From Candidatus Poseidonia sp. (GTDB lineage: Archaea > Thermoplasmatota > Poseidoniia > Poseidoniales > Poseidoniaceae), in the NCBI GenBank assembly GCA_023254365.1, contig JALRLQ010000002.1:1-50562 (forward strand): a stretch of DNA of 50,562 nt, in the 5' to 3' direction. The first letter of the stretch is position 1; each line of letters starts with the position of its first letter. The notes beneath the pieces were generated by a model. The model did not search any database, was not told the origin of the DNA, and was given only the letters and a program-made list of their open reading frames with translations. This document shows positions 3,792 to 45,912 of the stretch, one piece after another. A program made the position numbers and the translations under genes.

Positions 3792-3978
3792 GCGAACATG
3801 GCTTACCGGACGCGGGAAGGTCTTGAACACACCGACAGTCGCTTACGAAATACGGTGATTTTTCGATGAAATTTCTCCTGTCAAGCGTGGGATGTATGAA
3901 CAATGTTCCATCAGCCTCATAAGCAATCTTGGAGGAGTGAAAAACGAGCGAAGCGTATGCTTGGCAGTTGGTGAGTCC

Positions 3979-6900
3979 ATGCGTCGAAGTCAAACCACCC
4001 TCCTGACCACGTTTGCGGTCATCGCAAGTTTGCTCTTCATGTCACAATTTCCCGCCATCTCAAACGTGGCCAACGTCCACCCTGACGACACCACACAAAC
4101 CCCGCCCCCGAACACCGACTCGGACGGTGATTTGATTCCCGATGTTCACGAGACCTTGTTTGAAGACTGGATGAATTGGACTGCACCGGACGGTCGTCCC
4201 GTGGTGGTTGTTGGACTCGACAAGAACGATGCGTCGGATGCCAACACCGATCGTGACCTTGACGGGTTGAACGCCACTGAGGAATTTTGCTGGCCGTATC
4301 CTGCCAACTGCACTGCGCCCGGGTTTCCTCGGGGTCTCACCGGTCAGTTGGATGAAAACAGCGACCGCATCTACCTCGATCCTCGGGTGGCCGACACCGA
4401 TGGTGATGGCATGCCCGACGGGTACGAAGCCTACATGTGCCAGCGGACCGGGGGATTTGACAGCACCTCGTTGCGTTACAATTGTCCAACATTCGATCCG
4501 CTCAACGCGAGCGATTTAACCTACGACGGTGACAACGATGGATTCGATGTCAACCGAGACGGCGTGATGAGTGAATCCGAACGGTACACTGCGCCGGAGG
4601 AATATGCCTATGGCATGCCGTCCAATTACACCACAGAATTGGATGGGTTGTGGTGCTATGCCACCCTCCCTGACGGTGCCGTGTTGAAGAATTGGCCGTA
4701 CATTCCTTCCGGTGCAAATGCGACCTTCCACAATCTGTTGAGTGCCTGTACCCTTCGTGATGTCAATCCCGTTGGGGAAGATATGTGGCTCGGCACCGAC
4801 CCGATGCTGGACGATTCGGACCGTTACTTGTGGGACGGATTTTCCATCCGACCGTTGTATCCCTCTTTTGGCGATGGCATTCCGGATGGATGGGAGGTTC
4901 ATTTCGGATTGAATCCATTGAACCGAACCAATGCCCTTGAGGACCCGGACAACGACGGGTGGGACGCCAACAGAGACGGCGGTATCACGGCAGACCTTGC
5001 TCGAACCGAGACGGCGTTGAGCATTGGCGAGGCCCTCTCAACGCTCGAGGAATACAATGTCCACTTTGATAACGGCAACACCGTGTATCCTGGATTGAAG
5101 ACCACGGTGGTTGGTGACACAGAGAATTACAATGTCCTCCCGCTCGTTTACGATACGACTGAAGACGACCTTGCCATCATGCATCATGATGTGCGTTCCC
5201 TCGACGAATACGACGGCACGGTGTACGTCATGACTCGTTATGGCGTGAGCGTCATCAACGAAGCTGATGCCTTCCAAGCCCACCAGTGGTTGCCTCAGGG
5301 CGTGGAACTTCATGACGGGTTCCTTGCCCGCTCCGGCGTCACACCGTATGCGTTGGTGATGGGGACGAGTGTCGGCTTCGCCGTCGCCCCTCTCCTGGCC
5401 GATGGTTCACTCGGCACCATCAATTCCTGGGATTGGAGCATGACCGAGGGTCTCCACGCTGTTGCTCCCCTCGCCGGCAGTGATCTGAACCTGCACGTCA
5501 TCGGTTTGGGGGACAGTGGAGAAGGAGCCATCATCGAAATCGACGGTACGGGGGCCATCGCAGAAACTCATGAACTTGGTTTGGGGTTGGTCTCCGGGTT
5601 GTCTGAAGCGAACGCCAGCGTCACTTCGGTTGCGCACGGGCTCGCAGGGGGTTCCACCTTGACCCTCTTCGTTGGCACCGACCGAGGTTTGTTCGTTGTG
5701 GAAACAGCCTCGGCTCGCGACGAAACCGCTGGTGTTTGGGCCTTCTTCTACACCCAAGAGACCACGGGGATTCCAACCAACGTTGATGTTGTTCGTAGCC
5801 TGCCACTCGGCTCTGTAGGAAATCCGGCCGAGGTACGAACCCTTGTCTTGGATGGCCCGTCGCCCTCCAACGCTCAGGTCCTTTGGTTTGGAACACCTGC
5901 TGGGGTGCACAAAATGAACCTCAACGATGGCTCCATCGACCACAGTGGATTGCTCCTCCACCCCGGTGTGGATGGGAAATTATCGAAGGAAACCAACAGC
6001 ATCCACAGCATACACCCCACCGGGGACGAAGTGCTGGTCGGTTCCGATTGGGGGCTTTGGGCGGTTGCAGGTGATTATGCCTCCGTTTATGGCCTCCAAG
6101 ACCAAACCCGTCTTCCCGGTGAAATCGTGGCGATCACGACCGCCGTCGGTGAAGGCAACGTTTCGGTTTATGCCGCTGCGTCCCCGGGGCGCTTTGCGAA
6201 CCTGCTTCTGATGGATCCCGGCGCCAACGATTCAGACGCCGACGGGATGCCAGACGGATGGGAGGTCGTTCATGGCCTTGACCCAACCGACCCGTGGGAC
6301 GCTCTTTACGACAGCGACGCCGACGGCCTTGATTTGGACCAGTCCGGCGATATGAATTTGGAGCGATTGTGGACCAACCTTGACGAATTCCGCTACACTC
6401 GATTGACGCCCGAAGGCTACAATTCCACCGACCCTCGAGTGGGCGACACCGATGGTGATGGGTTGGGTGACGGTGCCGAATACTTCGGTTTCTTCTTTGA
6501 ACAATCCACGCTTTGGTGCCACTACACGGTCCAGTTGGTCCATGTGTGTGACGATGCTGCAGGTCAGGCAGCCAATGCAACCTACCTTTCCATGGCCAAC
6601 GTCGACGCAGCGACGGACCCAACCAATCACGATACGGACGGCGATGGAATGCCTGATGGCTGGGAAATCGAACATCGCCGCTGGGTCGGAACAACCTTCT
6701 CTGGCGGAAACAACTGGAGCCTCGACCCCCTTCGTCCTGAGGATGCAACCTGGGATGCTGACGGTGATGGGCTTGCCAACTTGTGTGAATACCAGTGGTC
6801 GGTTGTTCGCCTAATGGGTGTGAACGGCGACCTTCTTGCAGACTATGGAGAATCTCCAGAAGCCGCTGAATCGTGGTCCGTTGCCGACCCCAACCTCGTC

Positions 6901-9729
6901 GATTCCGACGGCGATTCGCTACCCGATGGATGGGAATCAAAGGGATTGTGCACGTGGGATCCAAGCAGAGTGGGCGTCAATCCTCTCAACGGTTCAGATG
7001 CCTTCCAAAACCCAGATGGTGACGGGTACGACGTCAACCACGACGGTGTATTGAGTGAGGACGAGGCCTTCGTGAACTACCTTGAATACCACATTCGAAC
7101 CGATCTGTTCAGCGGCAACATGACGCTGGAGGGTGTTGAACTCCCCAACGGGTTCACCACGCGCCTGTTCGATTCCATCAGCGACTTTGGTGAACCAGAA
7201 GCATCGTTTGCTGAACGAGCCTCTGGTGCTGTGACCTCAGGTCAATCGGTCTACAGCGTTGGCGCTGCTGATCCCTTTAGCGCCGACACCGATCAGGACG
7301 GGATGCCGGACGGCTGGGAAATATGGCATGCTCGTTGGAACCTGCTTGACGATGAGTGGACCCTCAATCCACTGGACTCGACGGACCGATGGAACGATGC
7401 TGATAACGACGGGATGACCAACTGGGAGGAATACAATGCAATTTCGCCGCTGTACTCCCAAACGGATGCAAACCGTTCCTCTCCGCAATGGTTCGTCACC
7501 ACGATTGGAACAGCCTTTGCCTTGCAGCAGTGGCCGGGTATCCCCACCGAAGAATCGTTTGGGGACTTCTTGACCCAAGACCAAATCAACCTCACCGGCT
7601 GGACAGCCGACCCGAACAACGTTGACACCGATGGCGATGGCATGCTGGACGGTGTTGAATTGCTGTTCACCTCGTGGAACAGTTCTGCAGGAACATGGAC
7701 GCTCAACCCCTTGGTTGCAGGCGACGGTCAGTTTGATGGTGACGAGGACGGGCTGATTGACAGGCAAGAATTTGCTCTTGCAACCGAGCAACCTGACAAC
7801 GGCATCGACCACCCTACGGATGCACCGTTGCTGCACATCGACGGCGATTTGCAACAGCCCACGGAAAAGGCCCAACGGGTCTTCAACATCCTCATCTCCA
7901 AAGAAACCCGAGGCAAGCGCTTGCTCAACGACTTCAACGCCTGGCAGCAGGGTGAACCTCCCAATGCGTTCATTGAGGTGGTGTTGGGGATGACCGACCC
8001 CACCATCCCGGATACAGACGGTGACGGCATGTACGACGGATTCGAATATTGGTTCACCTCGTGGGACCTCGACCAAAACCGATGGGCCATGAATCCGCTG
8101 ATTGACGGTGACGTGAATCTTGACTCCGACCAAGACAGCTTCGACTGCAACAACGACGGAGAAATTGATGAAAACGAAACCTTCAGCAACCTCCGAGAAT
8201 GGGAGTCGAGAACGTGGGGGAAGTTCCTCAATCGCAACACGGTTCCCTCCAATTTGGGCATCATCGATTTCGGTGAAGACGCGATGCTCGCCTACCAAGA
8301 GGAACTTGGGTTCTCGTTGATTCAAGCCCAAGCCGCCCTGTACCAGGACTTCATCGAGAAGGGCCAGGATTCCCTCGACCGTATGAACAAAATCAATTCT
8401 CTCGAATCTGAAAATTTCAACCGAAGCCTCCGCGGTGTAGCTGACCCAACTCACCCCGATTCGGACAGCGACGGCATTCCTGATGGATGGGAATACTGCT
8501 ATGCCATCTTTGGAATGAACGACCCAACCACCATCAATCACTGGGCTGCCAATCCGCTCAACCCTTGGGACGTTGGTTACGACGGTGACCACGACGGGTG
8601 GTACGACCGAACCAGTTTCGATATTCCCGCTACCCAAGGCACGTGGGAGAACAGGGTGTTCACCCCTTCCGGCGTCTTGATTCAGAACGGCATTGGTGAC
8701 TTACCCTTCACCAACGCCATGGAATACGACAACGACACGCGCCCAGATCAAAACGACACCGACGAGGACAGCCGCACTTACTTGACCACCGTTGAGAACG
8801 GGCAGGTTGTTTCTCACGTCCGGGACTACAACTATTCCGACGGTCGTGAAGTGTTCAAGTACGGCTCAAATCCCAGCGACAACGACACCGATGGCGACAT
8901 GCTACCGGATTGGTACGAATACAAATTGGGGTGGAACGAGAGCAACGACAACTTCAGTTCCTATCTCCAGATTCAAGTGGTGTGGATTGATGTTGCGACC
9001 GGTGGGCCCTGCGACACGTCGACCACGTCGTGTCTACCGTTGTCTCAGGACGGCTCCGGTGGTACCTTGGCCCGACCGGACATTGAGATGGCCTGGTTCA
9101 CGCTCAATCCAGCCGACCCGAACGACGCAAACCAAGATCCTGACCAAGATGGAAACTGGGACTGCACCGGTGCGGGGTGCACCTATGAACCCTACACCAA
9201 CTTCCAAGAATTCTACGCCATCACGACCAGCGAATATTCCTCGCCAAATGCCGTCCGGCTCAGCGGATTAACCCATGACGGCGTCCCAGTGACCGAGGGC
9301 TGGCAGTTCCGTGCCGCCATTCTCGGTTTGGGCCAATCCAATGAACTCGTTCTGAACTATTTGAAACTCGACCGCTATGCTGGACCCGACCGTCAATACG
9401 GCTACATCGTGGACGATAACGACGTCGATTTCCTGACCGTTGACCCGAGTGACGACGTGATTTTGATGGCGGGCAACCAAACCGACCAGTGGGATATCTA
9501 CTATGCCAGTTCACCCAACACCGCACCGGTGAGGGAGGTTGGCGAACACGAATTTGGATGGTACTTGCTGGACTTTGATGACGACCATTTGGCCGAAGGC
9601 TCGAGCCCTCTCAATTGGGACACCGATGGAGACTGGATGAACGATTGGTTTGAGGTTCACGACGATGAAGAAGACGGCGTTCGAGGCGATTCCTCACCGA
9701 TTCGATACGACTCTCGACAGACCTCTTAG
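3979..9729 (+). CDS. Giant secreted protein with thrombospondin-3-like calcium-binding repeats
   Basis: A secreted protein of about 1,916 residues. The ATG at 3979 gives MRRSQTTLLTTFAVIASLLF, a signal peptide with probable cleavage after NVA; upstream in-frame starts (3892, GTG 3937) would bury it. About a dozen modules carry aspartate-rich calcium loops of the form D-[TS]-D-x-D-G-[MIL]-x-D-G-[WYF]-E, usually followed 30-50 residues later by NPL and a second loop D-x-D-x-D-G, then EY. Between roughly residues 390 and 740 the loops stop and a region with WD/PQQ-propeller-like periodicity (VYVMTRYGVSVI, LFVGTDRGLFVVE, VLVGSDWGLWAV) is inserted. There are many NxS/T sequons. No C-terminal anchor is seen, so it is probably released or held non-covalently. 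A calcium-stabilised adhesin or surface fibre is likely; this is inference. The next gene is co-oriented, 62 bp downstream. Confidence 0.9.
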   Translation: MRRSQTTLLTTFAVIASLLFMSQFPAISNVANVHPDDTTQTPPPNTDSDGDLIPDVHETLFEDWMNWTAPDGRPVVVVGLDKNDASDANTDRDLDGLNATEEFCWPYPANCTAPGFPRGLTGQLDENSDRIYLDPRVADTDGDGMPDGYEAYMCQRTGGFDSTSLRYNCPTFDPLNASDLTYDGDNDGFDVNRDGVMSESERYTAPEEYAYGMPSNYTTELDGLWCYATLPDGAVLKNWPYIPSGANATFHNLLSACTLRDVNPVGEDMWLGTDPMLDDSDRYLWDGFSIRPLYPSFGDGIPDGWEVHFGLNPLNRTNALEDPDNDGWDANRDGGITADLARTETALSIGEALSTLEEYNVHFDNGNTVYPGLKTTVVGDTENYNVLPLVYDTTEDDLAIMHHDVRSLDEYDGTVYVMTRYGVSVINEADAFQAHQWLPQGVELHDGFLARSGVTPYALVMGTSVGFAVAPLLADGSLGTINSWDWSMTEGLHAVAPLAGSDLNLHVIGLGDSGEGAIIEIDGTGAIAETHELGLGLVSGLSEANASVTSVAHGLAGGSTLTLFVGTDRGLFVVETASARDETAGVWAFFYTQETTGIPTNVDVVRSLPLGSVGNPAEVRTLVLDGPSPSNAQVLWFGTPAGVHKMNLNDGSIDHSGLLLHPGVDGKLSKETNSIHSIHPTGDEVLVGSDWGLWAVAGDYASVYGLQDQTRLPGEIVAITTAVGEGNVSVYAAASPGRFANLLLMDPGANDSDADGMPDGWEVVHGLDPTDPWDALYDSDADGLDLDQSGDMNLERLWTNLDEFRYTRLTPEGYNSTDPRVGDTDGDGLGDGAEYFGFFFEQSTLWCHYTVQLVHVCDDAAGQAANATYLSMANVDAATDPTNHDTDGDGMPDGWEIEHRRWVGTTFSGGNNWSLDPLRPEDATWDADGDGLANLCEYQWSVVRLMGVNGDLLADYGESPEAAESWSVADPNLVDSDGDSLPDGWESKGLCTWDPSRVGVNPLNGSDAFQNPDGDGYDVNHDGVLSEDEAFVNYLEYHIRTDLFSGNMTLEGVELPNGFTTRLFDSISDFGEPEASFAERASGAVTSGQSVYSVGAADPFSADTDQDGMPDGWEIWHARWNLLDDEWTLNPLDSTDRWNDADNDGMTNWEEYNAISPLYSQTDANRSSPQWFVTTIGTAFALQQWPGIPTEESFGDFLTQDQINLTGWTADPNNVDTDGDGMLDGVELLFTSWNSSAGTWTLNPLVAGDGQFDGDEDGLIDRQEFALATEQPDNGIDHPTDAPLLHIDGDLQQPTEKAQRVFNILISKETRGKRLLNDFNAWQQGEPPNAFIEVVLGMTDPTIPDTDGDGMYDGFEYWFTSWDLDQNRWAMNPLIDGDVNLDSDQDSFDCNNDGEIDENETFSNLREWESRTWGKFLNRNTVPSNLGIIDFGEDAMLAYQEELGFSLIQAQAALYQDFIEKGQDSLDRMNKINSLESENFNRSLRGVADPTHPDSDSDGIPDGWEYCYAIFGMNDPTTINHWAANPLNPWDVGYDGDHDGWYDRTSFDIPATQGTWENRVFTPSGVLIQNGIGDLPFTNAMEYDNDTRPDQNDTDEDSRTYLTTVENGQVVSHVRDYNYSDGREVFKYGSNPSDNDTDGDMLPDWYEYKLGWNESNDNFSSYLQIQVVWIDVATGGPCDTSTTSCLPLSQDGSGGTLARPDIEMAWFTLNPADPNDANQDPDQDGNWDCTGAGCTYEPYTNFQEFYAITTSEYSSPNAVRLSGLTHDGVPVTEGWQFRAAILGLGQSNELVLNYLKLDRYAGPDRQYGYIVDDNDVDFLTVDPSDDVILMAGNQTDQWDIYYASSPNTAPVREVGEHEFGWYLLDFDDDHLAEGSSPLNWDTDGDWMNDWFEVHDDEEDGVRGDSSPIRYDSRQTS

Positions 9730-9766: not shown

Positions 9767-9791
9767 AGTGTATGTCGGCCCTCACGCAGTC

Positions 9792-12700
9792 ATGGTAAGC
9801 GGCGGACAGCATACACTCGGTACTCGGGGCATCTTCTTGTTGCTCGTGTCGCTGATGATTTTGACGCCGCTCAGTCCGTTTTCGGAACTCGTGGCGGTCG
9901 AAGCCGATGCAGCGGCGGGCACTCGCCATGTCTACACGTTTGCCGACGGCTCCACCGAACACATCGCACTTTATCAAGGCGCCAACCCCGATCTCGGCGG
10001 GGAGGTCACCTTGCCACGCGGTGCGCTGGTCACGGACGTCACGATGACGCTCTCCGGTGCCTCGGCAACCGGTTGGTCTCAGGTGGTCGCTGACGACCGC
10101 GTGCATTGGATTCGCGGCGCTGAGAGCAATGTTGACGACCGCAGCGGCGACTTGACCCTTGCCCTCTCAAACGTGAGTCGAAATTTCCTGCCTCACGCCA
10201 ACGATGCGTACGTCAACCCGAATTCCGATGCCTGGTTGGACAACGGCTCCAATGCGCTTCGTCAACCGCACACCTCAAACGCCACGGAATCCCTGTTTTC
10301 ACAACAGTTGACGAAAACCTCATCCAGTTTCATGGCCCAAAGCCAAGGGGCGATTTTGAAACACCACGACTGGCTGTTTTTGTCGACGTGGTCATCGTCC
10401 AGTTTCCACAACGTCGTGGAACGGCTTTACCCCAACAACGCCACCCGTGAATCCGTTATCACGCTCGAGCAGGCGTCATGTACGCTGCCCCAGAAACACT
10501 CGTCGTCCTACTATGCATACTACGGGTTCCGTGACTGGACCATCACCGATGATGAACGCCTTTTCGGCATCTTGTCCGGCTATCGGTACACCTACGGCTC
10601 CTCCGCACCTGTGAACTATCATCGAGTTCTTGAGATGGACATCTCACGCGATGACACGTGGACCTGCATTGATTCCTACGACATTTCCCCTTCGGTTGGC
10701 GAATACACGGGTATCGCCTACGATCGAGACACCGGAAAAGTATGGGTTGCACACAACGCCATGAACCGGTTGTATGCGTACGACTTTGCGGGCGATGGAA
10801 CCGGGACGTACACTCGCGACCAGCAATTCTATTCCTACACGTCGTCATCAAGCTCGACATGGGAATGCGGTGGAACGGCCAGTAACAACCAGAAGCAGAT
10901 GCTGCGTGGTCTGGAAGTCAACGGTTCAACGTTCTACATGCGATGTCAGAAAGACATGTACTACAACGACCGAGATCAACTTGAGGCGTGGTCCGTTTCC
11001 GGTTCCTCATCTTCGCTCATTCCCGAAACCACGGTGCGTCAAATTTCACGCTTGGGCTACGGCCTGCAATACGACGGCGAACGCTTCGTGACGGTTGACA
11101 GCGGTTATTCCACATGGTCAGGAGCCACCCTCTACTACCGAGAGTTTGGTACTGGATGGATGTACGAAACAACGCCCGCACCTGGCACCACGACGTGGTA
11201 CGGTGAGGTCGTGACCACGGGCGACGATGTTTTGGCCGCCAACGTCCAAACCTACTGGTCAGCCGCTTCGATTGGTGACCGCGTCGACTACTGGATATCG
11301 GCCGATAACGGCACCCATTGGGAAGAAGTGACCTCCAATGAGACCATTCACTTTGACTATCCCGGTCGGGAGTTGGTTTGGAAAGCCCAGCTGATTGGCT
11401 CGACCGCCGTATCGTGGTGGGTTGACATGGAATACGCCACTGCCTATGCCGCCTCCGGCGACTGGACTTCTCCGCATTTCAACACCGGGACCAAAGTCGG
11501 CAAGGTCCGTCCACAATGGACCGCCGATGTACCAGTTGGCACCACGCTTCAAGTGGTGGTTTCTAACGACAACGGAAGCACGTGGTTGGATGCTTCCAAC
11601 GGTGTTGAAACGAGTTTCTCCACCGAGGCTGCTGGAAACACCCTGCGCTATGCGGTCTTCATGACCACCAGCGACGCATCCACTACGCCCTCCCTTGACC
11701 GCTTTGTTCTCGAATACGAAGAAGGCTATCCCGACCGACCGATGTTGGACATTGGCGGAGATGGAACCTACGATTGGGAATCCCAAATTTTCCTCAACGA
11801 GTCATCCGTGGTCGCTTCTGACGATTCGCCAGTTGGCGACGTGGTCAAGAAAGCACCAACCCTCGTTGATGCTTTCAATTCCCATGTGCCTGAAAACGGC
11901 GACGGTTCGGTCACCATCCCCATTGGAGTGAAGGCAGCGAGTGCGGGACGCGTGAAGATATCGAACATCGACATCACCTATGCCATGCAGACTCGAGCTG
12001 TTGACGCCTCGTTCGAGGGAGGATTGGCGGCACCGGACGGAATTTACCGCAATTTCATCACGCGAGTGGCGCCGGGCGACGACGTCGACCGCGTGACCAA
12101 GGCGGTGATTTCCATCGACCACTCCTACGGGGACAATCCTACCTTCACGTGGGAACGGGGTGACAGTTGTTCGGTGAATTCCGACGCAGGCGGCATTGTT
12201 GTCTTCGATGTTGCCAACTGTACATCAACGGTGGATGCGAACGACGTTGTTTCCATCTGGATGCCCACGAAGGTGAACTGGAGTTGGAACGACGAAAGCA
12301 GCACTGAAGCCATCATTTCCGTGGAAGATGACCTCGGCCCGTCCGTGGACCGTTGGGAAACGTCCTCCATGGACCTCGTGGTCGAAAACGACATTCAGTT
12401 GGACGGCCTGCGTGTATGGGAAGAAACGGGGCGTCAGCTGTATCCCATGGATTGGGTTCGTGGAGGGTTTAACCTCAGTTTCAGCGGGTCCATGCATTTC
12501 CAAGATTCTCAATTGATGCCTCCAGCTGGTAGTTTTTCGCTTCGTATTCTCGGTCAAAACGTGACGTATGACGGCGACCCTCTGGGAGAACCGCAAATCC
12601 TCTACGAAGAAGTGAATCCAGCCTTTGGTGCCTACAACATGACGTTCACATCCCCCATTGAATCGGCTCCCGGCGGTATGATTTTCTATGTTCAAGCCGT

Positions 12701-15239
12701 TGATCTCGAGAACGGCTCGACCTTCACCAATCCCAACTACAACAGCATCCGATTGATTCTGGACGGAAACTCACCGCTTGTGCTCAGCGCCACCCCTCTC
12801 GACGGTTCTGAACGGCATGCTGGTGCTTCAGGTGTTGGCCAATCCGTCTCCATTGTCGTGCAAGACTCCGTTGACCCACCTCGCCAACTCAGTTTGCACT
12901 ACTGGGTGGGATGCAAGGCCAGCGAAGCCATCGGATGCACCGATTACAACTTCGATGGGCTGCCCAACGAAGACGAGTACGAACTCGTCACCCTCTCGTC
13001 ACCCGAAACCCGGGCCGGGGGATTGAACATCTTCGAGGGACTGATCGACGACTCGATGCTCCTCCACAGACAGCGCGTCTCGTTTTACGTCTCGGGTGAG
13101 GACGAGCAGAACAACCAAATTGCCATGGGCATGGGACCCGTTTGTCCCCAATCCACCATCACCTGCGGCTACCGTCCCGGCGAAGTGGTGCCAGACTGGG
13201 ATGCTGACCTTGTGACCTATCACATTCGTCAAGAGTTTGAACCAGAGGTCGATGTGGGCAATTCCTCTATCTTGGGTCACGATGACTACGAACCGCTCCA
13301 CCCAGGCATCCCGTACACTGCACAAATCAAGTTGGTTGACATCAACGGATGGCAAGATATCCAGTATGTCCAAGTGGCCTTGGGTGGTGATTTCGAGGAC
13401 GATGAATCCTCGATGTTCATCTCCCTTGCAGAAGGTCCGGATGGCCTACCCCAAGCGGTCATGACGTCCGGTTCGAATTACATCGCCGTGTCCAACCTCT
13501 ACTCCACCGTCAGTTTGGAAGAAGGAAACGAATCTGTGGTCATCATCCAGGCCCGATTCCAACTCACGTGGATGTTCCCCGAGGTGTTTGATACCGATGG
13601 ACTCAGTCATTTCATTCCACGTGTGAGGGTCACGGACATGCCCTGCAACGACAACGAAGTGACGCCTTGTTTCGTGGTCGAGGAAGGCATGGGTGACGAT
13701 TGGTGGAGCCTTGACAACGATTTCCGATTCGATACCGAGGCTGGCCACATTCGAGCCATTGAGTTGAGAAACAGCGAGAACCACTACAATCCGGAAAATT
13801 ACGAAACCATCATCGGTGCAGGCCAAGCCCTGCGTGTCTCAGGTCGTGTTCTCTTCTCCGAAGACGAAACACCTGCGCCGCCCGGTGCCTTTGATGTGGT
13901 GTTCGGTGACTTCGAAAACAATTGGCGAACCTCCACCCGCGAAGACGGCGAATTCAGTCTCGACCTTCTGGTGCCATCCGTTCGTTCCGGCCGTCTCGAC
14001 TTGCGCTTGAGCATGGATGACCTGCCTGGCCTTGCTTTCGACGAGACACCGTTCTCCCCTCGTGTCCGCCTTGCCGTCGACAGTGCTCGCCCGACCATTG
14101 ACAGCATTTCGCTGAACGGGGTGCCCGTGAACTCTCCACTCTCCATCGGTCAAGCCAGCAATTTGGAAGTCATTCTCATCACCAACGATGAAAATGGATT
14201 CAACGTGAAAGAAGCCGCTGTTCTGCACTACCGTGTCAAAGCAGGTGAAGCAGAGATCTCCCGAGGCAGTGTGTTGCTTCCGGACATCACGCCGTTTGGC
14301 CAGCAGTATTTCTGGAGCGGTAACTTGGACCTCACCGATTCAGGGGCTACGACCCTCCTGCCCTCCTACTCCGTTGATGTTTGGGTTTCTGGTTCTGACG
14401 AAGCGGGCAATCCGTACGACACCATCAAGAATTCAATGGGCGATCCCTTTGCATCTTGGCCGTTGGCCCTTCTTGGCCCCCGTGTAGACCTCCAACACGA
14501 ATCCACCTCCTTGCAGTGGGACGTGCCAAGCCCGTATGAAGGCGACACGGCGACGATGGTGGTCAACACCGACAACCTGGGTGGTAACGGCTACGTTGAA
14601 TTCGCCTTGCAGCAGCATGTTGACGGTGGCTTCTGGTCAACGGTCACGCTGACCGGCTTGGAAGCCACGACCGGTGGGACCCTGTCCGCATCACTTCCCG
14701 TCGTGGTCAATGCCAAGGCTGGCGACACGCTCGAATACCGTGTCATCGTCTTGGTTGACGGTGTAGAGATGGACCGTCATACCGTTGACTCCCTCTTCAT
14801 CAAAGAAGAAACGGTTCGTGACGGAGCTGCCCTTTCCCAGCAACTTTCGACCGATGTCTTCTCTGTGACGCTGTTTATCATCGCCCTTGCCTCGGTTTCG
14901 TTCGGCATGTATGCGCTGGTGTTGCGCCGTCGTATGCTTGCCCCCGAGACCGAAGAGGAAATGGCTGACCAAACGGCCGTCGTTGCTGATGAAATGGTGG
15001 CGACCAAAGCCGTTCCAGCCATTGCCAACCCTCCGGCTGGGCAGGTTCCGCCACCGCCAACCGCTGGCGTCCCGCCCCCTCCTGCTGCCGCTCAAGTTCC
15101 TCCGCCCCCCAAGGTGGTTCCAGGACCCGATCGTAGCGTGCCACCGCCCATTCCCCCCACCGGGTTGCCAGAAGGCTGGAGTGAGGAGCAATGGAGTTCC
15201 TACGGATGGCAATACATTGACGCCCTTGCCAAGAAGTGA
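9792..15239 (+). CDS. Giant membrane-anchored surface protein with proline-rich tail and GLPxGWxxEQW motif
   Basis: About 1,815 residues. The ATG at 9792 (rather than GTG 9768) opens a signal peptide with core GIFLLLVSLMILTPL. The ectodomain is beta-rich: a propeller-like stretch with paired cysteines (about residues 160-420), jelly-roll or FN3-like segments, and near residue 1350 a carboxypeptidase-regulatory-like fold (VSGRVLFSEDE ... TREDGEFSLDL). One transmembrane helix (SVTLFIIALASVSFGMYALV) is followed by RRR, an acidic stretch, repeated PPPP runs and the terminal motif GLPEGWSEEQWSSYGWQYI. The protein is therefore type I: large outside, short proline-rich tail inside. An almost identical tail ends the subtilase at 40924-45912. 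A short helical gene overlaps its stop codon by 4 bp. No catalytic motif was recognised; an adhesin or polymer-binding role is a guess. Confidence 0.88.
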   Translation: MVSGGQHTLGTRGIFLLLVSLMILTPLSPFSELVAVEADAAAGTRHVYTFADGSTEHIALYQGANPDLGGEVTLPRGALVTDVTMTLSGASATGWSQVVADDRVHWIRGAESNVDDRSGDLTLALSNVSRNFLPHANDAYVNPNSDAWLDNGSNALRQPHTSNATESLFSQQLTKTSSSFMAQSQGAILKHHDWLFLSTWSSSSFHNVVERLYPNNATRESVITLEQASCTLPQKHSSSYYAYYGFRDWTITDDERLFGILSGYRYTYGSSAPVNYHRVLEMDISRDDTWTCIDSYDISPSVGEYTGIAYDRDTGKVWVAHNAMNRLYAYDFAGDGTGTYTRDQQFYSYTSSSSSTWECGGTASNNQKQMLRGLEVNGSTFYMRCQKDMYYNDRDQLEAWSVSGSSSSLIPETTVRQISRLGYGLQYDGERFVTVDSGYSTWSGATLYYREFGTGWMYETTPAPGTTTWYGEVVTTGDDVLAANVQTYWSAASIGDRVDYWISADNGTHWEEVTSNETIHFDYPGRELVWKAQLIGSTAVSWWVDMEYATAYAASGDWTSPHFNTGTKVGKVRPQWTADVPVGTTLQVVVSNDNGSTWLDASNGVETSFSTEAAGNTLRYAVFMTTSDASTTPSLDRFVLEYEEGYPDRPMLDIGGDGTYDWESQIFLNESSVVASDDSPVGDVVKKAPTLVDAFNSHVPENGDGSVTIPIGVKAASAGRVKISNIDITYAMQTRAVDASFEGGLAAPDGIYRNFITRVAPGDDVDRVTKAVISIDHSYGDNPTFTWERGDSCSVNSDAGGIVVFDVANCTSTVDANDVVSIWMPTKVNWSWNDESSTEAIISVEDDLGPSVDRWETSSMDLVVENDIQLDGLRVWEETGRQLYPMDWVRGGFNLSFSGSMHFQDSQLMPPAGSFSLRILGQNVTYDGDPLGEPQILYEEVNPAFGAYNMTFTSPIESAPGGMIFYVQAVDLENGSTFTNPNYNSIRLILDGNSPLVLSATPLDGSERHAGASGVGQSVSIVVQDSVDPPRQLSLHYWVGCKASEAIGCTDYNFDGLPNEDEYELVTLSSPETRAGGLNIFEGLIDDSMLLHRQRVSFYVSGEDEQNNQIAMGMGPVCPQSTITCGYRPGEVVPDWDADLVTYHIRQEFEPEVDVGNSSILGHDDYEPLHPGIPYTAQIKLVDINGWQDIQYVQVALGGDFEDDESSMFISLAEGPDGLPQAVMTSGSNYIAVSNLYSTVSLEEGNESVVIIQARFQLTWMFPEVFDTDGLSHFIPRVRVTDMPCNDNEVTPCFVVEEGMGDDWWSLDNDFRFDTEAGHIRAIELRNSENHYNPENYETIIGAGQALRVSGRVLFSEDETPAPPGAFDVVFGDFENNWRTSTREDGEFSLDLLVPSVRSGRLDLRLSMDDLPGLAFDETPFSPRVRLAVDSARPTIDSISLNGVPVNSPLSIGQASNLEVILITNDENGFNVKEAAVLHYRVKAGEAEISRGSVLLPDITPFGQQYFWSGNLDLTDSGATTLLPSYSVDVWVSGSDEAGNPYDTIKNSMGDPFASWPLALLGPRVDLQHESTSLQWDVPSPYEGDTATMVVNTDNLGGNGYVEFALQQHVDGGFWSTVTLTGLEATTGGTLSASLPVVVNAKAGDTLEYRVIVLVDGVEMDRHTVDSLFIKEETVRDGAALSQQLSTDVFSVTLFIIALASVSFGMYALVLRRRMLAPETEEEMADQTAVVADEMVATKAVPAIANPPAGQVPPPPTAGVPPPPAAAQVPPPPKVVPGPDRSVPPPIPPTGLPEGWSEEQWSSYGWQYIDALAKK

Positions 15240-15691
15240 GAGGTGCTCGGTTGACGGAGGAACCGGTTGACGGCATGGTCACGTTGCAGGAACGCACCGT
15301 GAATCTTGTCAACCAACTCAACATGCCGCTGGTGGAAGTTTCGTTGGTCATTCAACGGCATCTGAAGCAATTGATGGGCACCCTCAATCAGCACTTGACC
15401 GCAACAGGCGAGACCGTCAATGCGCGTGTTCACTCGCCGTGGCCACTCGATGTCGAATCATCCACATCGTCTGCATCGTTTCCTCTGGACAAGGTCATGG
15501 ACATCGTTGACCAACAACGCATGGACATCCTTGACACCTTGGTTCGTGTGACCCTGATTGAAATCAACGCCTCCGTCGTCGACGCCATCCTCGCCTTGCG
15601 GGCGTGGGAGCATCTTGCTCGAACGCAACTTGCGAACGCTACCGGCCCGGGTCAATTGTTCTCACCTCTTGACATTCCTGATGATTGGTGA
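15236..15691 (+). CDS. Small helical protein, unknown function
   Basis: A 151-residue protein that I do not recognise. It starts with GTG at 15236, overlapping the preceding stop by 4 bases (GTGA), which is typical of translational coupling; an internal ATG at 15275 is an alternative. The sequence is predicted by eye to be almost all helix, with heptad-like hydrophobic spacing (VNLVNQLNMPLVEVSLVIQ, VMDIVDQQRMDILDTLVRV). It has no signal peptide, membrane segment or cysteine motif, so it is probably cytosolic. Its position directly behind the anchored giant protein makes a cytosolic partner of that protein's tail an option worth testing, but this is inference only. Confidence 0.6.
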   Translation: MRGARLTEEPVDGMVTLQERTVNLVNQLNMPLVEVSLVIQRHLKQLMGTLNQHLTATGETVNARVHSPWPLDVESSTSSASFPLDKVMDIVDQQRMDILDTLVRVTLIEINASVVDAILALRAWEHLARTQLANATGPGQLFSPLDIPDDW

Positions 15692-27719: not shown

Positions 27720-27784
27720 GCCGATTTCTCCGCAGTCAAGAGTTCATGTTATGAGGCATGGGCGCTTGGCAGGGGCGAGAACTG

Positions 27785-29800
27785 ATGCGTCAAGCCTTGC
27801 TTCTGAGTTTTCTTCTTGTAGCCGTTACCCTGTCTCCGGTGCTTGAACCCGTGCAGGCAGCAGGCTCGGACGACCTTGTGGTCTGTTGTGACGCTAGCCC
27901 GGTCGAGTTGTATCTCCTTGGCAGCGACAGCAACAAGAAACTCACGCCCTTCGCATCGGAACTCGGCGATGAGCCGCAACGAGTCTCTCTCGAGACCTCC
28001 ATCTCATCCCAAGAGAGCATCGGCCGCTGGGTCCTCCCCGACACCTGGGGGGGCGACATCCCTGAATCAACGTGGACCTTCTCGTTGAACTACGAAGTTT
28101 CCAACGCTGCTGGTGTTCAAATCAACGCCACTGCCACGGTGAACATCGGCTCCAAAAGTTTCTCCGCCCAAACGGACCCGGGTTCGTTCCTTGCCCAAGG
28201 AACCGGCTCCATGACCTTTGAAATTGAAGTGGAAGCCATGACCACATCGGGTTCATCGAACATTGAACTTGAAATGACGGCTCAAGCCGTTGTCTTCAGT
28301 GTCCCGGGTGCCGATGCAAAACTCGAATTTCTCTGGGGAAGCGAAGATGATGCATCCTCTCTGGAAGCAACGATTCCTGTGATGGACATCCTGATGGTTG
28401 AACCCGAGGTGGAAGGCTCCGACGTGTACCTTGCCGTTCGTTTGGATTCCCCGTGGGGCCTGTCAACCCTTGCGATGGCCGAGTCCATCAGTCTCAAAGT
28501 CAACGGGAGAGAGGTGACCGGCGATCCCATTGAAACGGCGTCCGGCGATATGGTTCGAGTCACATGGACATGGTCCGAGGCTGCCGGTGGTGTTGAAGTC
28601 ATCAACGTCGAAATTGACTTGGTGTTCCAGCAAGGAAAACCCTCGCTGAAGGGCTCTGCGACCTTTGAAATTGAGACCGATGATTCAGGTGGCGGCACCG
28701 GAACCTACTATCCACCTGACGAACCTCTTCGCACCGACGGTGACGGGAGTGGCTTGGTGCTTGACATTGACATCAACTTGAGGCATGACGGCAACGGGTT
28801 GTTGCTCGAGCGAGTGACCACGATGGAAATTGGCGATGAACTGGCGTTTTGGATGCGTTGGGGCATGGACCACATTGGTGACGATAACCCCGCTTTGTCC
28901 TCGATGCTTCGTGCCTTTTCAGCGGGTGCCGTGACGGACGAAGACCGTGTGAGCCGCTTCGTTGAGGATGTGGAACTCGCAGAATTTGAACGGCAATTGG
29001 TCACCCTTGGGCCGATGTACATGAACGCAGGCCTCGGCCTTGACACCGAAGAGTTGCTCGGTGATTTCCGGTCGTTTAACGAACTCAAGGTTGAGGTGGA
29101 TTTGAACGGGAAAAACGCCGTGATCAACCATCCCGTGACGTTGCGTTTTTCCACCACACAACTGATTGCTGACGGTGAGCGCTTTGACCTTCTTCGCAAT
29201 TTTGTCGTCGTCCAACCCGCCCCGCTCTGGAGCGACATGACGATTGAACTCACCGCTCGCTCGAGTTCCCTTACGGCATTGAGCAGCAGCATTCTTCGAG
29301 AATCCGATGCGTTTGATTTCTCCGTTTCTCGTTTGCCCTGGGGCGATTCGATTCGCCTAAGTGGAACGGACATTGACCAAAACGAGAAATTCACACTGGC
29401 CACCTTGCCAACCACTTCGCTGGTGTATGCCCCGTTGTCCTTGACTGCTCTCACCCTCGTTGGTCTGATTGGAGCCTTTGTGATTGGTTTGAACTTGACC
29501 AAAGAACGTCGTCGGACTTCTCTCTATGTTGAACTGGTCTTGGTCCCGGTGGTGCTGCTCATCACCGTGCTCGGCTATCCACCTCTGTTCATCGGCATCG
29601 CGCTTGGTGCAACGGCGATGATTTGGTGGGTCACCGGTGTTGCGAGCCCTCGATTGGTGGGAGCGGCCCAACGTCGTACCTCAACCGTACCGACCATTCC
29701 ATGCCCTGCTTGCCAAACACCCAACGCCGTCACGACGACTGAGCGACCCCATCGATTCAATTGCAAAGGATGTCAGCGAGTGATCAAATTGGTTGCCTGA
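27785..29800 (+). CDS. Exported multi-span membrane protein with C-terminal zinc ribbon
   Basis: 671 residues from ATG 27785 (MRQALLLSFLLVAVTLSPV, a good signal peptide; the ATG nine codons upstream is less likely). The ectodomain of about 530 residues is beta-rich with Thr/Ser runs, a GGGTGTYYPPDEP linker near residue 310 and a helical second half (LSSMLRAFSAGAV; VELAEFERQLVTLG). Three C-terminal helices (SLTALTLVGLIGAFVIG; YVELVLVPVVLLITVLG; FIGIALGATAMIWWVTG) precede a cytosolic zinc ribbon, CPACQTPNAV ... FNCKGCQRVI. No enzyme motif was seen. Its TGA directly abuts the TGA of the opposing CBS gene (shared TGATCA at 29798-29803). Confidence 0.8.
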   Translation: MRQALLLSFLLVAVTLSPVLEPVQAAGSDDLVVCCDASPVELYLLGSDSNKKLTPFASELGDEPQRVSLETSISSQESIGRWVLPDTWGGDIPESTWTFSLNYEVSNAAGVQINATATVNIGSKSFSAQTDPGSFLAQGTGSMTFEIEVEAMTTSGSSNIELEMTAQAVVFSVPGADAKLEFLWGSEDDASSLEATIPVMDILMVEPEVEGSDVYLAVRLDSPWGLSTLAMAESISLKVNGREVTGDPIETASGDMVRVTWTWSEAAGGVEVINVEIDLVFQQGKPSLKGSATFEIETDDSGGGTGTYYPPDEPLRTDGDGSGLVLDIDINLRHDGNGLLLERVTTMEIGDELAFWMRWGMDHIGDDNPALSSMLRAFSAGAVTDEDRVSRFVEDVELAEFERQLVTLGPMYMNAGLGLDTEELLGDFRSFNELKVEVDLNGKNAVINHPVTLRFSTTQLIADGERFDLLRNFVVVQPAPLWSDMTIELTARSSSLTALSSSILRESDAFDFSVSRLPWGDSIRLSGTDIDQNEKFTLATLPTTSLVYAPLSLTALTLVGLIGAFVIGLNLTKERRRTSLYVELVLVPVVLLITVLGYPPLFIGIALGATAMIWWVTGVASPRLVGAAQRRTSTVPTIPCPACQTPNAVTTTERPHRFNCKGCQRVIKLVA

Positions 29801-40855: not shown

Positions 40856-40923
40856 GCCCCGAACGATGCGCCATCAACACAGGCGAGAGTTTCATTCAAA
40901 AGAGGGGCTTGATTCCGAAGTTC

Positions 40924-43900
40924 ATGCTGTCGAGAGCATGGCTGTCCGTTGTTCTCTTTTTGCTGATTTCCACCCCCCTCTCGGTGGCTGCCAATGCCAC
41001 GGTGAAACCATTGAACGAACCTGCCGAGGAGCGCTCGGAATCTGGCTTGTCCTTTGACCAAATGAGCGAAGTTCAGCGGCTTGAACTGGCCCGCAGTCAT
41101 TGGTCAACGATGCCGCAAGCCTCCACGGTCGAGGCCTCAATCAAGCCATCAACCGGGCAACTTCATCTTTCACACGGGTCGTTTGATCCGTTGACATCGG
41201 CCGGACCAGTCCTTCCCGCATGGCTGATGCGAGACGGCGACATGGTTCACACCGGTCTCGCCGTTCTTCAATTGCACGAGGCCAACGGCGTTGTCTTGTC
41301 TTCGCTTCAGGAGACTTACGGATTTACTGTACTTGACGTGCTCTTCGACGAGGCTTGGCTTGTCCGCCTCCCTCCGAATGCTGCCCCTTCGCAACTTCGA
41401 GAAGAAAGCACAGTCCGCTGGCTTGGACCCCAACAGCCCGGTTGGCGTGTGGCTCCAATCCTCATCACGCAACCCTCTGACGTGGAGGTCCTGTCCATTG
41501 TTCCCACACCTGACCTTGGTCTCGGTGGATTTGGAACCTTGGCAACCGATTTGGTACGCTACGGAGCAAACGAAGCCTCCTGTGATGCATGGATGTGCAG
41601 CGCTGCCGTGAATCCAGAAGACGCCCATGTCTTTGTTCAAAACGTGGCGCATGATGGCCGAATCCTCTGGTCTGAACCGGCCAGCGAACTTCGTGTGCAC
41701 AACGCGCTTGCGTGGTCGGTTGCCGGTGTTCAAGGCGTGGCCAACAACGCCACGTTTACCTTGGACGGCTCGGGGGAGATGGTGGCCATCACCGATACCG
41801 GACTGGACAGCAATCACCCGGACCTCGCCGGAAGAGTGGCTGCAACCTACACTCAGTTTGGGTTGGACCCCAGTCCACAGGACACCAACGGTGGCCACGG
41901 CACCCACATTGCGGTCACGGTGTTGGGCAATGGTACGGGTGACGCCGCTGCACGGGGGGTGGCCCCCGCTGCAACGCTCGTGATGTACGCATTGGAGCAC
42001 GACCCTACAGGAACATTCGGCCGCATTGGCTCCATTTACGACATGCTTCGTGATGCTGAACAGATGACGGCTCGTCTCTCGGTGAACGCATGGGGCCTCA
42101 ACGGAAATTACGGACAATACACGGCCGATGCTCGTTCCGTCGACATTTTTGTTCACGACCGAAAGGACCTGACGCCCATCTTTTCAGTGGGTGACCGAGG
42201 TGGGTCGGGTGCGTCCCAAGTCACTTCTCCTGCGACCGCCAAGAACGTGCTCGCTGTCGGAGCCTCCACCACGGGGGCGGCAGGAACAACCGCCGCTGGA
42301 AGCGTTGCGAATTTTTCCTCGCTTGGCCCCAGCCTTGATGGCCGTGTCAAACCCGATGTGGTCGCACCGGGCGTGGGTATTTGTTCAGGGCTGGCCGAAG
42401 AGGCTCGTTTCCCGGCTGGGACCTCGTGTCTATCCGGATCGCACGCCAGTGGGAATTCCTACTACATGTCGCTCACCGGCACCTCCCAAGCGACAGCCGT
42501 CGCCTCGGGCGTTGCTGCCCTCACACGTGAATTCATTCGCGAACAAGCGGGTGTGGCTTCTCCATCGAGTGCGCTGGTCAAAGCTGCCCTCATCAACGGC
42601 GCAACCGATTTGGGAACGCCGGACATCCCCAACGCTGCCGAGGGATGGGGTCAAATCAACCTCGAGCGAACGGTGCTTCCCATGGACGGAACCACCCCGC
42701 TTGACACCTTTTTTGACGATAAGAAATCACTCGAACCCGGCTTTGGGTTGCTCTACTCGTTCTCGCTCGACCCTTCACACGGTCTTGATTTGACCTTGGC
42801 ATGGACCGACGAAGCGGGCAGTGCCAACACGGCTCAGACTCAACCCCGCCTCGTCAACGACCTCGACTTGGTGTTGGTAGCACCCGATGGAACCGAGTGG
42901 TTCGGAAACAACTTCGCTCAAGGATTCTCGACATCGGGCGGTACCGCCGATGACCTCAACAACGTCGAACGTATTCGTGTGGCCCCGGGTACGCTTTCCT
43001 CGAGCACCGGTGATTGGATCGTCAAGGTGCTCCACCGGGGTGGCTCAACGCAAGACTTCGCCTTGGTGATGTCGGCGGTTGCAACACCAACGCCACAGGC
43101 AGACTTGGTCGTGTTTGATGGAAGCATCCTCACGTCATCTGAAAACCCGTTGCGAAACGATTTGATTTCCATTCGGCTTGCTTGGGCAAATCAAGGGACC
43201 AGCACCTCCTCGTCCTTCGATATTCTTCTGGAGGATTTGACCACCCAAACCACCCTCGCCACCGCAAGCCGACCCAGTCTCGGTCCGGGAATGATCGACT
43301 CCTACACCATTTTCCATCAATTTACCACCACAGGCGTCCATACGCTTCGGTTGTCTATTGACACGGGGAACACCGTGATTGAAATGAACGATGCTGTGAA
43401 TGGTTTTGACAACAACATCCTGGAGCAAAATGTGGAAGTGATGGCCCTCGGTGTTCGAGTGGTGGTTGAGAACGACGACGGTACGTTGCCCACCACACCC
43501 GAGGAACGTGCGGCCAACGCGATGATGACATTGGATGTTCGTAACGATTCGGGAATTGACATTCCGCTGAGTGTTCTCCACGAAGGTACGGGAAACCAAT
43601 CCGTCAAATTGTCAGCGTCGATGGTCCAAATTCCTGTGCCAGGCCGGGAGAATTTCTTCCTCCCAAGTCCGGACATGTGGACACGAACATTCAACGAAAG
43701 TGCCACGTTCATCCTCAACGCCCAAGGGACCGAAGGAGCCAACAAATCCATCAATTTGAGACTTGAAGACATTGATTCTGATTTGACCTCCGACCCATCG
43801 AATCCTCGGTATGTGCGTGCGGGTACGTATGTGGTTGAATTGACGGCCAGGTACGAAATGCAACCGACGGTGGCCCACACCCAACGCATCATGATCGAAG

Positions 43901-45912
43901 TTGAACAAATCGATCAGGTTCAGGTCGTTGCTGCAGGTACGAGTGGCTTGCAGGCTCTTCCAGGCGGTTCAAGCGTCTTTTCCATCTCGGTGCGCAACAC
44001 CGGAAATGCCCCCGCCCAATACAGCATGGAATGCTTTTCTGAGCAGCGCTGGCAGTTGATGCTTGGCTCCTCAAATTCCTCACAACTTGATTTTGAACCC
44101 TTGACCATCCTCGAATACCTCCCCATGTCCATTCGCGTGATTGTTCCGTTGGTGGCTGATGGCGTCCCTTCCGCTGGCGATACGGATACCGTCACCTGCT
44201 ACGTGACCTCGCTCACGGACTTGAGCATGAATTTCTCGGAAACCGTGACCATCACCGTTCTCGCTCAAGAATCGTTTGATGTTCATCTCATGGACGACAA
44301 CGGTCGAGTTGGGCCCAACCAACTTTCGCCCGACATCTCTGTCGACAGTGGGCAAAAGGTCTACCTCAACATGAGTATCATCAACACCGGAAACATTGAG
44401 GTTGAACTTGATGTTTCGGTGCTTCCAGACAACCCGCAGTGGGCCATCCAAGTGAGTTATGACGGTGTGACGGACACGCGGTCCATCTCCCTCACCCTCG
44501 GCGCCGGTCAGGAAACAACGGTTCAGTTCATTTTCGCCGTACCGTTGACGGCGGAAGAGAACGACGCCAATTCCTTCACGATACGGACCGAGCGTAGCCT
44601 GTCCAATTTCCGGCAGAACATCACCCGGCTTGTTGTTCGCGATGAGTTGGGTATTGAATTGACTCCACCAATCGACAACCACATTGATGCCAGCATCGCA
44701 AGCGTCTTTTCCTACGGCGAATTCAAGGTGAAAAACACCGGAAACACCGACCTGTTGCTGAATTGGTCCCACGGACTTGCTCCAGACGGTTGGGAGGTTG
44801 GTTTTGCCAATCCAATCGTCTACCTGGAGCCAAGGGAGGAAAAGGTCGTTCGCTTCGGCGTCATTCCTCCAGCACAGGCGCAAGCGACGGACAATGCCTT
44901 TGAATTGTTGATCAAGGTCAACGCCTCCAATCTCGATCGCTTTGTTGAGGCGGATGAGATGGTGTCCGTCGGCGTCCTTCCCTCGGCGTTTGGAAACATT
45001 TCTGCAATTGGTGAAGGTGAACGTCTGCTCCAGGGCATTTCTCGTGAAGATGGACGAACACAGACCTTTGAGATACGCAACGATGGCAATGTTCCTCTCA
45101 CCGCCTCCTTGACCTCAGTGCTGCTTGACAAGGATGGTGAAGAGCGAACGGATTGGTCGATCAGCATCAATCCAGACACCGTGTCACAGCTTGCTGTTGG
45201 TGCTACACAAACCGTGGAAGTCACCCTCACGCCCTCGGAGAACGTCGCAAGAGGCACCTCCACACTCATGCTAAACTTGAGCACAGAAAGCGGTGTCGTC
45301 ACGAACCTCCAAATGGACGTCAGTGTCGCAACGGCGACGGGTTCCACGGGTCTGTTCAGTGTTCTCCCTCCCGCCGTTAGCGGGGCTTTGGTGGCCGTGT
45401 TGCTCGTTGGTGTTGTCGTGGTGGGCCGGCGGATGAAGAAATCCGGTGAACTCACCGATGACGGTGCCGAGTTGGTGGCTCCCGACACGCACGTTGACCC
45501 CGACACCTTGGGGCTACGCCGAAATGAAGCTTTGAACCTTGGAACGGCTGTTGACGAACTTACCAGCGGCGAAGTCAGCGATGACGAGATTGCCCAAGCC
45601 ATCATGCAGTCGATGGACCTCCCCGCATTACCTGCCCAGGTTCCTGCAGGCCTTCCTCCTGCCGGAATGCCTCCCAAGGCCAATGTTCCCAAAGGTTTGC
45701 CACCTGCGGGTATGCCTCCAGTTCCTGCACCTGGCAAGGCACTGCCAGCCCTTCCACAAGCGGCCCCCTCGGCCGCCCCATCACCGCAACCTGCTCCAGC
45801 CGCCGTTCCACCTCAATCAGGACCGCCTCTCCCACCGGGTGGTCTCCCGGCCGGCTGGACCATGGAACAATGGCAGCACTACGGGCATGAGTGGTTGCGC
45901 CGGCAAGGCTGA
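40924..45912 (+). CDS. Giant membrane-anchored subtilisin-like (S8) protease with GLPxGWxxEQW tail
   Basis: 1,662 residues from ATG 40924 (MLSRAWLSVVLFLLISTPLSVAANA, signal peptide; TTG 40909 is less likely). After a propeptide-like region of about 270 residues, the S8 domain shows Asp291 (AITDTGLDSNHPD), His325 (GGHGTHIA) and Ser521 (LTGTSQATAVASG). At the oxyanion position the usual Asn is Asp424 (FSVGDRGGSG). A P-domain-like sandwich follows, then several CARDB/NEW3-like Ig units (LVVFDGSILTSSENPLRNDL; VRNTGNAPAQYSM; IRNDGNVPLTASL). One membrane helix (SGALVAVLLVGVVVVGRRMKK) leads to a proline-rich tail with two GLPPAGMPP copies and the end motif GLPAGWTMEQWQHYGHEWL. It probably degrades extracellular protein at the cell surface; Marine Group II members are thought to live on such substrates. 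Confidence 0.93.
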   Translation: MLSRAWLSVVLFLLISTPLSVAANATVKPLNEPAEERSESGLSFDQMSEVQRLELARSHWSTMPQASTVEASIKPSTGQLHLSHGSFDPLTSAGPVLPAWLMRDGDMVHTGLAVLQLHEANGVVLSSLQETYGFTVLDVLFDEAWLVRLPPNAAPSQLREESTVRWLGPQQPGWRVAPILITQPSDVEVLSIVPTPDLGLGGFGTLATDLVRYGANEASCDAWMCSAAVNPEDAHVFVQNVAHDGRILWSEPASELRVHNALAWSVAGVQGVANNATFTLDGSGEMVAITDTGLDSNHPDLAGRVAATYTQFGLDPSPQDTNGGHGTHIAVTVLGNGTGDAAARGVAPAATLVMYALEHDPTGTFGRIGSIYDMLRDAEQMTARLSVNAWGLNGNYGQYTADARSVDIFVHDRKDLTPIFSVGDRGGSGASQVTSPATAKNVLAVGASTTGAAGTTAAGSVANFSSLGPSLDGRVKPDVVAPGVGICSGLAEEARFPAGTSCLSGSHASGNSYYMSLTGTSQATAVASGVAALTREFIREQAGVASPSSALVKAALINGATDLGTPDIPNAAEGWGQINLERTVLPMDGTTPLDTFFDDKKSLEPGFGLLYSFSLDPSHGLDLTLAWTDEAGSANTAQTQPRLVNDLDLVLVAPDGTEWFGNNFAQGFSTSGGTADDLNNVERIRVAPGTLSSSTGDWIVKVLHRGGSTQDFALVMSAVATPTPQADLVVFDGSILTSSENPLRNDLISIRLAWANQGTSTSSSFDILLEDLTTQTTLATASRPSLGPGMIDSYTIFHQFTTTGVHTLRLSIDTGNTVIEMNDAVNGFDNNILEQNVEVMALGVRVVVENDDGTLPTTPEERAANAMMTLDVRNDSGIDIPLSVLHEGTGNQSVKLSASMVQIPVPGRENFFLPSPDMWTRTFNESATFILNAQGTEGANKSINLRLEDIDSDLTSDPSNPRYVRAGTYVVELTARYEMQPTVAHTQRIMIEVEQIDQVQVVAAGTSGLQALPGGSSVFSISVRNTGNAPAQYSMECFSEQRWQLMLGSSNSSQLDFEPLTILEYLPMSIRVIVPLVADGVPSAGDTDTVTCYVTSLTDLSMNFSETVTITVLAQESFDVHLMDDNGRVGPNQLSPDISVDSGQKVYLNMSIINTGNIEVELDVSVLPDNPQWAIQVSYDGVTDTRSISLTLGAGQETTVQFIFAVPLTAEENDANSFTIRTERSLSNFRQNITRLVVRDELGIELTPPIDNHIDASIASVFSYGEFKVKNTGNTDLLLNWSHGLAPDGWEVGFANPIVYLEPREEKVVRFGVIPPAQAQATDNAFELLIKVNASNLDRFVEADEMVSVGVLPSAFGNISAIGEGERLLQGISREDGRTQTFEIRNDGNVPLTASLTSVLLDKDGEERTDWSISINPDTVSQLAVGATQTVEVTLTPSENVARGTSTLMLNLSTESGVVTNLQMDVSVATATGSTGLFSVLPPAVSGALVAVLLVGVVVVGRRMKKSGELTDDGAELVAPDTHVDPDTLGLRRNEALNLGTAVDELTSGEVSDDEIAQAIMQSMDLPALPAQVPAGLPPAGMPPKANVPKGLPPAGMPPVPAPGKALPALPQAAPSAAPSPQPAPAAVPPQSGPPLPPGGLPAGWTMEQWQHYGHEWLRRQG

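Follow-up and report, generated by a model that had tools for sequence, protein, structure and literature searches.

Why do two giant surface proteins, encoded about 30 kb apart in the window (the whole stretch of 50,562 nucleotides analysed here), carry the same short sequence behind a membrane helix? The shared block, called the tag below, has the consensus PP[LIV]PxxGLPxGW[ST]xEQWxxYGxx[YW]L and occurs twice on the forward strand, at 15144-15218 (PPIPPTGLPEGWSEEQWSSYGWQYI) and at 45820-45897 (GPPLPPGGLPAGWTMEQWQHYGHEWL), as seen in translation and with a back-translated pattern, which revealed no third place in the window and no match in 100 shuffles. A sequence-only reading of this DNA had noticed the GLPxGW motif in two proteins; translation bears this out, the cores being GLPEGWSEEQWSSYGWQYI (GLP...QYI) at 15162-15218 in the open reading frame (ORF) 9768-15239 and GLPAGWTMEQWQHYGHEWL (GLP...EWL) at 45841-45897 in the ORF 40909-45912. 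The coordinates 15164-15239 given there overshoot the motif, and the wording that protein 1 "ends in" QYI was slightly off, because six residues, DALAKK, and the stop come after the motif, up to 15239; the real ends are ...QYIDALAKK for protein 1 and ...EWLRRQG for protein 2. The shared block is also longer than the pattern first described, taking in the preceding PP[LI]P, and counted from there 14 of 25 residues are identical between the copies. In both proteins, the N-terminus is signal-like and the last membrane helix (14856-14924 and 45361-45426, by hydropathy and translation) is followed by a basic cluster (RRRML, ending at 14939, and RRMKK, ending at 45441), a proline-rich linker and the tag, just as the reading had it. 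Over the tag itself no Pfam-A or NCBIfam family passes the curated cut-off, tail 2 having no match at all and tail 1 only sub-threshold matches to DUF4100 (E 0.26) and BimA (E 0.0026), and no description of the tag was found in Pfam, in NCBIfam or among the papers searched.

Protein 1 (9768..15239, forward strand) is a giant type I surface protein of 1823 aa. It shares 65% identity over 1805 columns with a tag carrier of 1812 aa from genome G010, a single 2.06-Mb contig. Its stop is overlapped by a small gene of 151 aa (15236..15691, forward strand) for which Pfam gave nothing significant (best KxDL, E 0.16); in 4/4 loci the G010 homologue of this gene was matched downstream of the carrier, at a distance of up to 900 bases. 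Directly before protein 1 lies a 1945-aa protein (3892-9729) with TSP3-like repeats that stay below the Pfam cut-off, an order also kept in G010. Protein 2 (40909..45912, forward strand) is a type I membrane protein of 1667 aa, an S8 subtilase (Pfam Peptidase_S8, E 4.2e-44) with CARDB repeats. The two ectodomains had been called unrelated, and they do differ, that of protein 1 showing nothing above the Pfam cut-off and only a marginal CARDB match (E 0.045).

Pattern search across Poseidoniia genomes, a check proposed with the first reading, revealed the tag to be lineage-wide: of the 194 class genomes sampled, 180 match the pattern and none the reversed pattern, against 0/140 for the further genomes of the phylum, taken as outside the class by their absence from the class sample. 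All 50 matching genomes of the phylum sample (50/195) lie within the class sample. By profile, 14 tagged genomes displayed 3 to 11 tag matches each at E 4.4e-12 or better, with one further weak match in G012 (E 0.0016), and a re-search of the 14 tagless class genomes gave four weak matches, none better than E 0.003. G010 encodes ten tagged proteins, clearly set apart from the next match (E 6.3e-12 vs 0.081). In a PheT tree, tagged and tagless genomes are parted by a branch with 100/99 support, the window falling among the tagged; the tree placed 12 of the 14 tagless genomes and left out G024 and G026 (tagless) and G004 (tagged), whose gene is split or missing. Judged from these sequences, the 14 tagless class genomes, 12 of them placed in the tree, are a separate group.

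A protein search with the C-terminal 60 residues of the subtilase yielded 176 proteins, and the motif was present in all 120 listed, most of them about 1110, 1160, 1230 or 1650 residues long. Among shorter proteins 66 were found, and the 14 inspected resemble C-terminal pieces of these same families. Absence beyond the phylum was judged from a scan of genome_contigs with at least 115 tagged stretches, of which 80 were listed by name, 79 of these under euryarchaeal titles (Euryarchaeota, Poseidoniales and their families, Thermoplasmatota, Thermoplasmata). The sole other title belongs to L034, a contig recorded under Flammeovirgaceae whose protein clusters with an archaeal tagged family and which is probably misbinned. 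Viral use of the tag was considered and rejected: the single match in viral_contigs, in what reads by sequence as a phage portal-like protein, has K for Q and stands outside a PP[LIV]P and GLP context, and is taken as a chance match.

Which proteins carry the tag, and on which side of the membrane? In 206 of 220 distinct ORFs a membrane helix precedes the GW by 30-149 residues (median 76), and the tail side of the helix is richer in K/R in 189 of them, equal in 11 and poorer in 6, placing the tag on the cytosolic side, as first proposed; this topology is a prediction that uses only hydropathy and the positive-inside rule. The other 14 ORFs include nine cut at the 5' end, two with a weaker visible helix and one short frame; the remaining pair represents a single N-in protein, present in two copies, with the tag near its N-terminus, inside by prediction because the order is SAP domain, tag, helix, ectodomain. 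No soluble carrier was found among the 220 ORFs, the nine 5'-cut ones not being judgeable. By prediction the carriers are membrane proteins, as had been anticipated, and none is demonstrably soluble, so that the refuting outcome named with the first reading did not appear. The very C-terminus is not the place of every copy, the exceptions being the N-in protein and one family with further residues after the tag (34-81 in the loci examined).

Clustering the 87 complete ORFs among the 220 by ectodomain, at E 1e-6 with 40% of the shorter sequence covered, gave 12 groups: ten have an ectodomain, one is a tail-only protein (136 residues) and one a fragment (85 residues). Pfam domains of the carriers comprise S8 subtilase with CARDB, PKD, arylsulfotransferase and NPCBM-associated repeats; more than one group has CARDB-type repeats, so that the carriers are not all strictly unrelated. 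A crude hydropathy filter applied to G010 retained 72 type I-like proteins with a tail of at least 40 residues, nine of them tagged, with tails of 54-172 residues. The tenth tagged ORF of this genome is devoid of an N-terminal signal, and its missing portion is probably an adjoining 776-aa frame. Paralogues of tagged proteins within G010 carry acidic, WW-like, zinc-ribbon-like or UBA-like tails instead; because these paralogues have similar ectodomains, the tail is an exchangeable module. A tagged family of about 360 aa (L029, L053, L057, L076) displays a CGGACHG or CAGSCH motif, which by its sequence may bind haem; L029 has no Pfam match.

The conservation of the tag was followed in 12 subtilases, that of the window and 11 orthologues found by a whole-protein query, leaving out L356 (no complete ORF) and the partial G005 loci L364 and L379. 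Mean pairwise identity among them amounts to 0.733 for the tag and 0.602 for the S8 domain; residues 600-1480 reach 0.41, and the membrane helix and the linker come to 0.27 and 0.24, respectively. To judge by these identities, the tag is under strong constraint, being kept better than the protease domain of the protein that bears it, and the linker diverges freely. A juxtamembrane element, SGEVSDDEIAQAIMQSMDLP (45565..45624, forward strand), was seen in subtilase tails, and residues 1511-1570 show 42% mean identity among the 12 orthologues. Residues that the search patterns left free are near invariant as well across 202 distinct tag stretches (the G of GW numbered 1), namely P at -6 (100%), G at -3 (99%), L at -2 (97%), Y/W at 14 (97%) and L at 15 (87%).

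A single short C-terminal signature spread over many surface proteins of one lineage is reminiscent of LPXTG, PGF-CTERM, GlyGly-CTERM and MYXO-CTERM. PGF-CTERM and GlyGly-CTERM signatures stand before a membrane helix and a short basic end and are processed; the same is described for MYXO-CTERM and LPXTG in the literature. The tag, in contrast, lies 30-149 residues after the helix and on the inner side, in 206/220 ORFs and in both copies of the window, and the nine tagged G010 proteins have tails of 54-172 residues after the helix instead of a very short basic end. Coming after the helix, with a predicted cytosolic location, it is not an external anchor of the LPXTG or PGF-CTERM kind, in agreement with the first reading. 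Eukaryotic type I membrane proteins carry short linear sorting or scaffold motifs on flexible cytosolic tails, and the tag would work like these while differing in its length of about 25 residues and its strong conservation; we know of no homology between the two.

A near-unchanging inner tail on so many differing surface proteins suggests that some inner part may grip them all: a tail of one sequence recurs on different proteins, lies in the cytosol by prediction, is confined to one clade of the phylum sampled and is strongly conserved. The most likely function, and one that we consider reasonably probable, is that of a cytosolic docking module for a common inner partner. The tag, of about 25 residues, would cap a flexible, proline-rich tether that follows the membrane helix, the polyproline PP[LIV]P leading to GLPxGW, which would begin a short aromatic helix, [ST]xEQWxxYGxx[YW]L. 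One common cytosolic or membrane-proximal partner would bind it and, once bound, might place or cluster the surface proteins or couple them to internal structure. The docking tag proposed by the first reading agrees with a shared element, predicted to be cytosolic, on varied membrane proteins, while on the other side the analysis identified no partner and a WW-like candidate is missing in 3/14 tagged genomes. The organisation of archaeal surface proteins from within is largely an open field, and the tag offers a bait peptide for seeking the missing cytosolic partner in an uncultured marine group, as well as a lineage marker and a reason to examine other recurring tail modules.

The candidate concerned is a tail of the form DxGxxWxxxxDGxxWWxxxxxxxWxxW, in which about ten G010 proteins end (e.g., L233:14120-18415); seven of these G010 tails had no match in Pfam. 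WW-like tails would be a natural reader of PPLP, and PP[LIV]P resembles group II WW ligands. A profile of these WW-like tails, which a divergent WW could escape, gave 5-12 matches in 10/14 tagged genomes, one marginal match (E 0.005) in G002 with its 4 tags, and none in G001, G004 and G060 (3, 4 and 3 tags) or in 14 tagless genomes. As an obligatory reader of the tag, by tail-tail pairing, these tails were rejected, being missing from 3/14 tagged genomes and marginal in a fourth. The tag itself also touches the WW domain, as GLPxGW aligns over nine residues with the first residues of PDB chain 2ysf of the ubiquitin ligase Itchy, which we take to be a WW domain, at a non-significant E of 0.95. 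It differs from WW domains, however, in a predicted continuation as helix and not sheet and in having no Pfam WW match, and the WW-like tails of the same archaea are not found in every tagged genome.

By sequence, docking could not be told from homotypic contact between tails or from a degradation signal. In the first case, the tag would be a self-associating mini-protein, its polyproline packing on the aromatic helix and tails pairing for co-assembly without a separate reader. Pancreatic-polypeptide and Trp-cage mini-proteins combine a polyproline segment with an aromatic helix, and the tag has the same two parts, PP[LIV]P and the helix both being near invariant; most genomes, moreover, have several tagged proteins that could pair. 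An AF2 model based on 53 tails predicts for a 42-residue tail one helix over MEQWQHYGHEWLRRQ (mean pLDDT 79.6), with block means of 78-88 pLDDT over residues 11-40 of 42, a further point for this reading. The model does not display the packing of such mini-proteins, however, its pTM is 0.48, and neither a Foldseek fold search with it nor a PDB sequence search with the tag found anything significant, so that no defined fold is established by it. We consider self-association unlikely.

In the second case, a membrane AAA+ protease such as LonB would seize the exposed aromatic tail. In its favour, the gene after the 1158-aa tagged family, which reads by its sequence as LonB, is kept in 36/36 loci. 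Downstream genes are, on the other hand, kept in most families, counted over loci that partly come from one genome and are not independent genomes: thermosome-like 17/17, adk 22/22, SepF 17/19, a 234-aa gene 10/11 and a 185-aa gene 11/11, with the 932-aa family as an exception (at most 2/9). Upstream neighbours are kept in seven tagged families (7/8, 12/14, 4/5, 5/6, 7/7, 7/7 and 2/3), in 1/4 loci of the 932-aa family and in 2/2 for the ORFs assigned to the 776-aa frame. The LonB adjacency is weak because upstream neighbours are conserved about equally, and by the same token the neighbourhood as proof of partnership is weakened in general. The Q, W, Y and G of the tag are conserved almost perfectly, to a degree that a protease degron does not usually require. 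A degradation signal appears improbable.

To the same low degree we credit a coupling of the surface proteins to the division machinery via SepF, which anchors FtsZ to the membrane. In 17/19 loci a divergent SepF gene comes right after the second gene of a tagged PKD pair; by structure its product has the SepF core fold, while its Pfam PF04472 score, 14.2 bits, stays below the curated cut-off of 27. This SepF (L417:1153-1740; G010 1707588-1708178) has a conserved N-terminus, MxxLWQFFGLPDPE, and a segment PxxWxGPxTxDGEPFHDLG. With 20 of 28 SepF-like matches taken, ordinary SepF above the Pfam cut-off was present in 4/4 tagless genomes searched and in 0/11 tagged ones. The end of the second protein of the PKD pair is often a stretch like LDD[LF]D[LF], resembling the FtsZ peptide residues LDDFI/DLDV, which bind the SepF groove according to PMC8178401. 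Against such a link, general synteny is high, the best SepF candidate in G002, itself weak, sits on a tag-free contig, the other tagged families have no seen tie to SepF, the LDDLDL end is separate from the tag, and LDDF is absent from all 23 FtsZ-family ends listed.

Inheritance of the tail through recent whole-gene duplication, with no function of its own, is hardly credible and already at odds with the data, for although the tagged genes of G010 include one pair of tandem paralogues and another pair with partly shared ectodomains, ten unjoined ectodomain groups with unconserved linkers have kept the tag.

Beside the favoured docking of the tag, it is a tentative thought that the exchangeable tail modules (tag, WW-like, UBA-like, zinc-ribbon and acidic LDDLDL) could form an address code by which giant surface proteins are assigned to scaffolds inside the cell, among these the SepF/FtsZ division machinery. 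Further tails recur in these genomes. One, YxxxLxAQGYPxExAxxYAQQY, is found in G010 at 592171-598851, 979711-983271 and 129165-132869, and the one example tested matched UBA just below the cut-off (E 0.0003). Another type is seen in the window itself at 27758-29800, where a hydrophobic stretch is followed by a CxxC zinc-ribbon-like tail, its G010 homologue (1401738) having the same kind of end. Finally, a 1762-aa protein of G010 (1919927-1925215) ends in a degenerate doubled form, GIPEGWTAEAYNEWLKGPMPEGWSGVQWNDF, which is perhaps an old relative of the tag.
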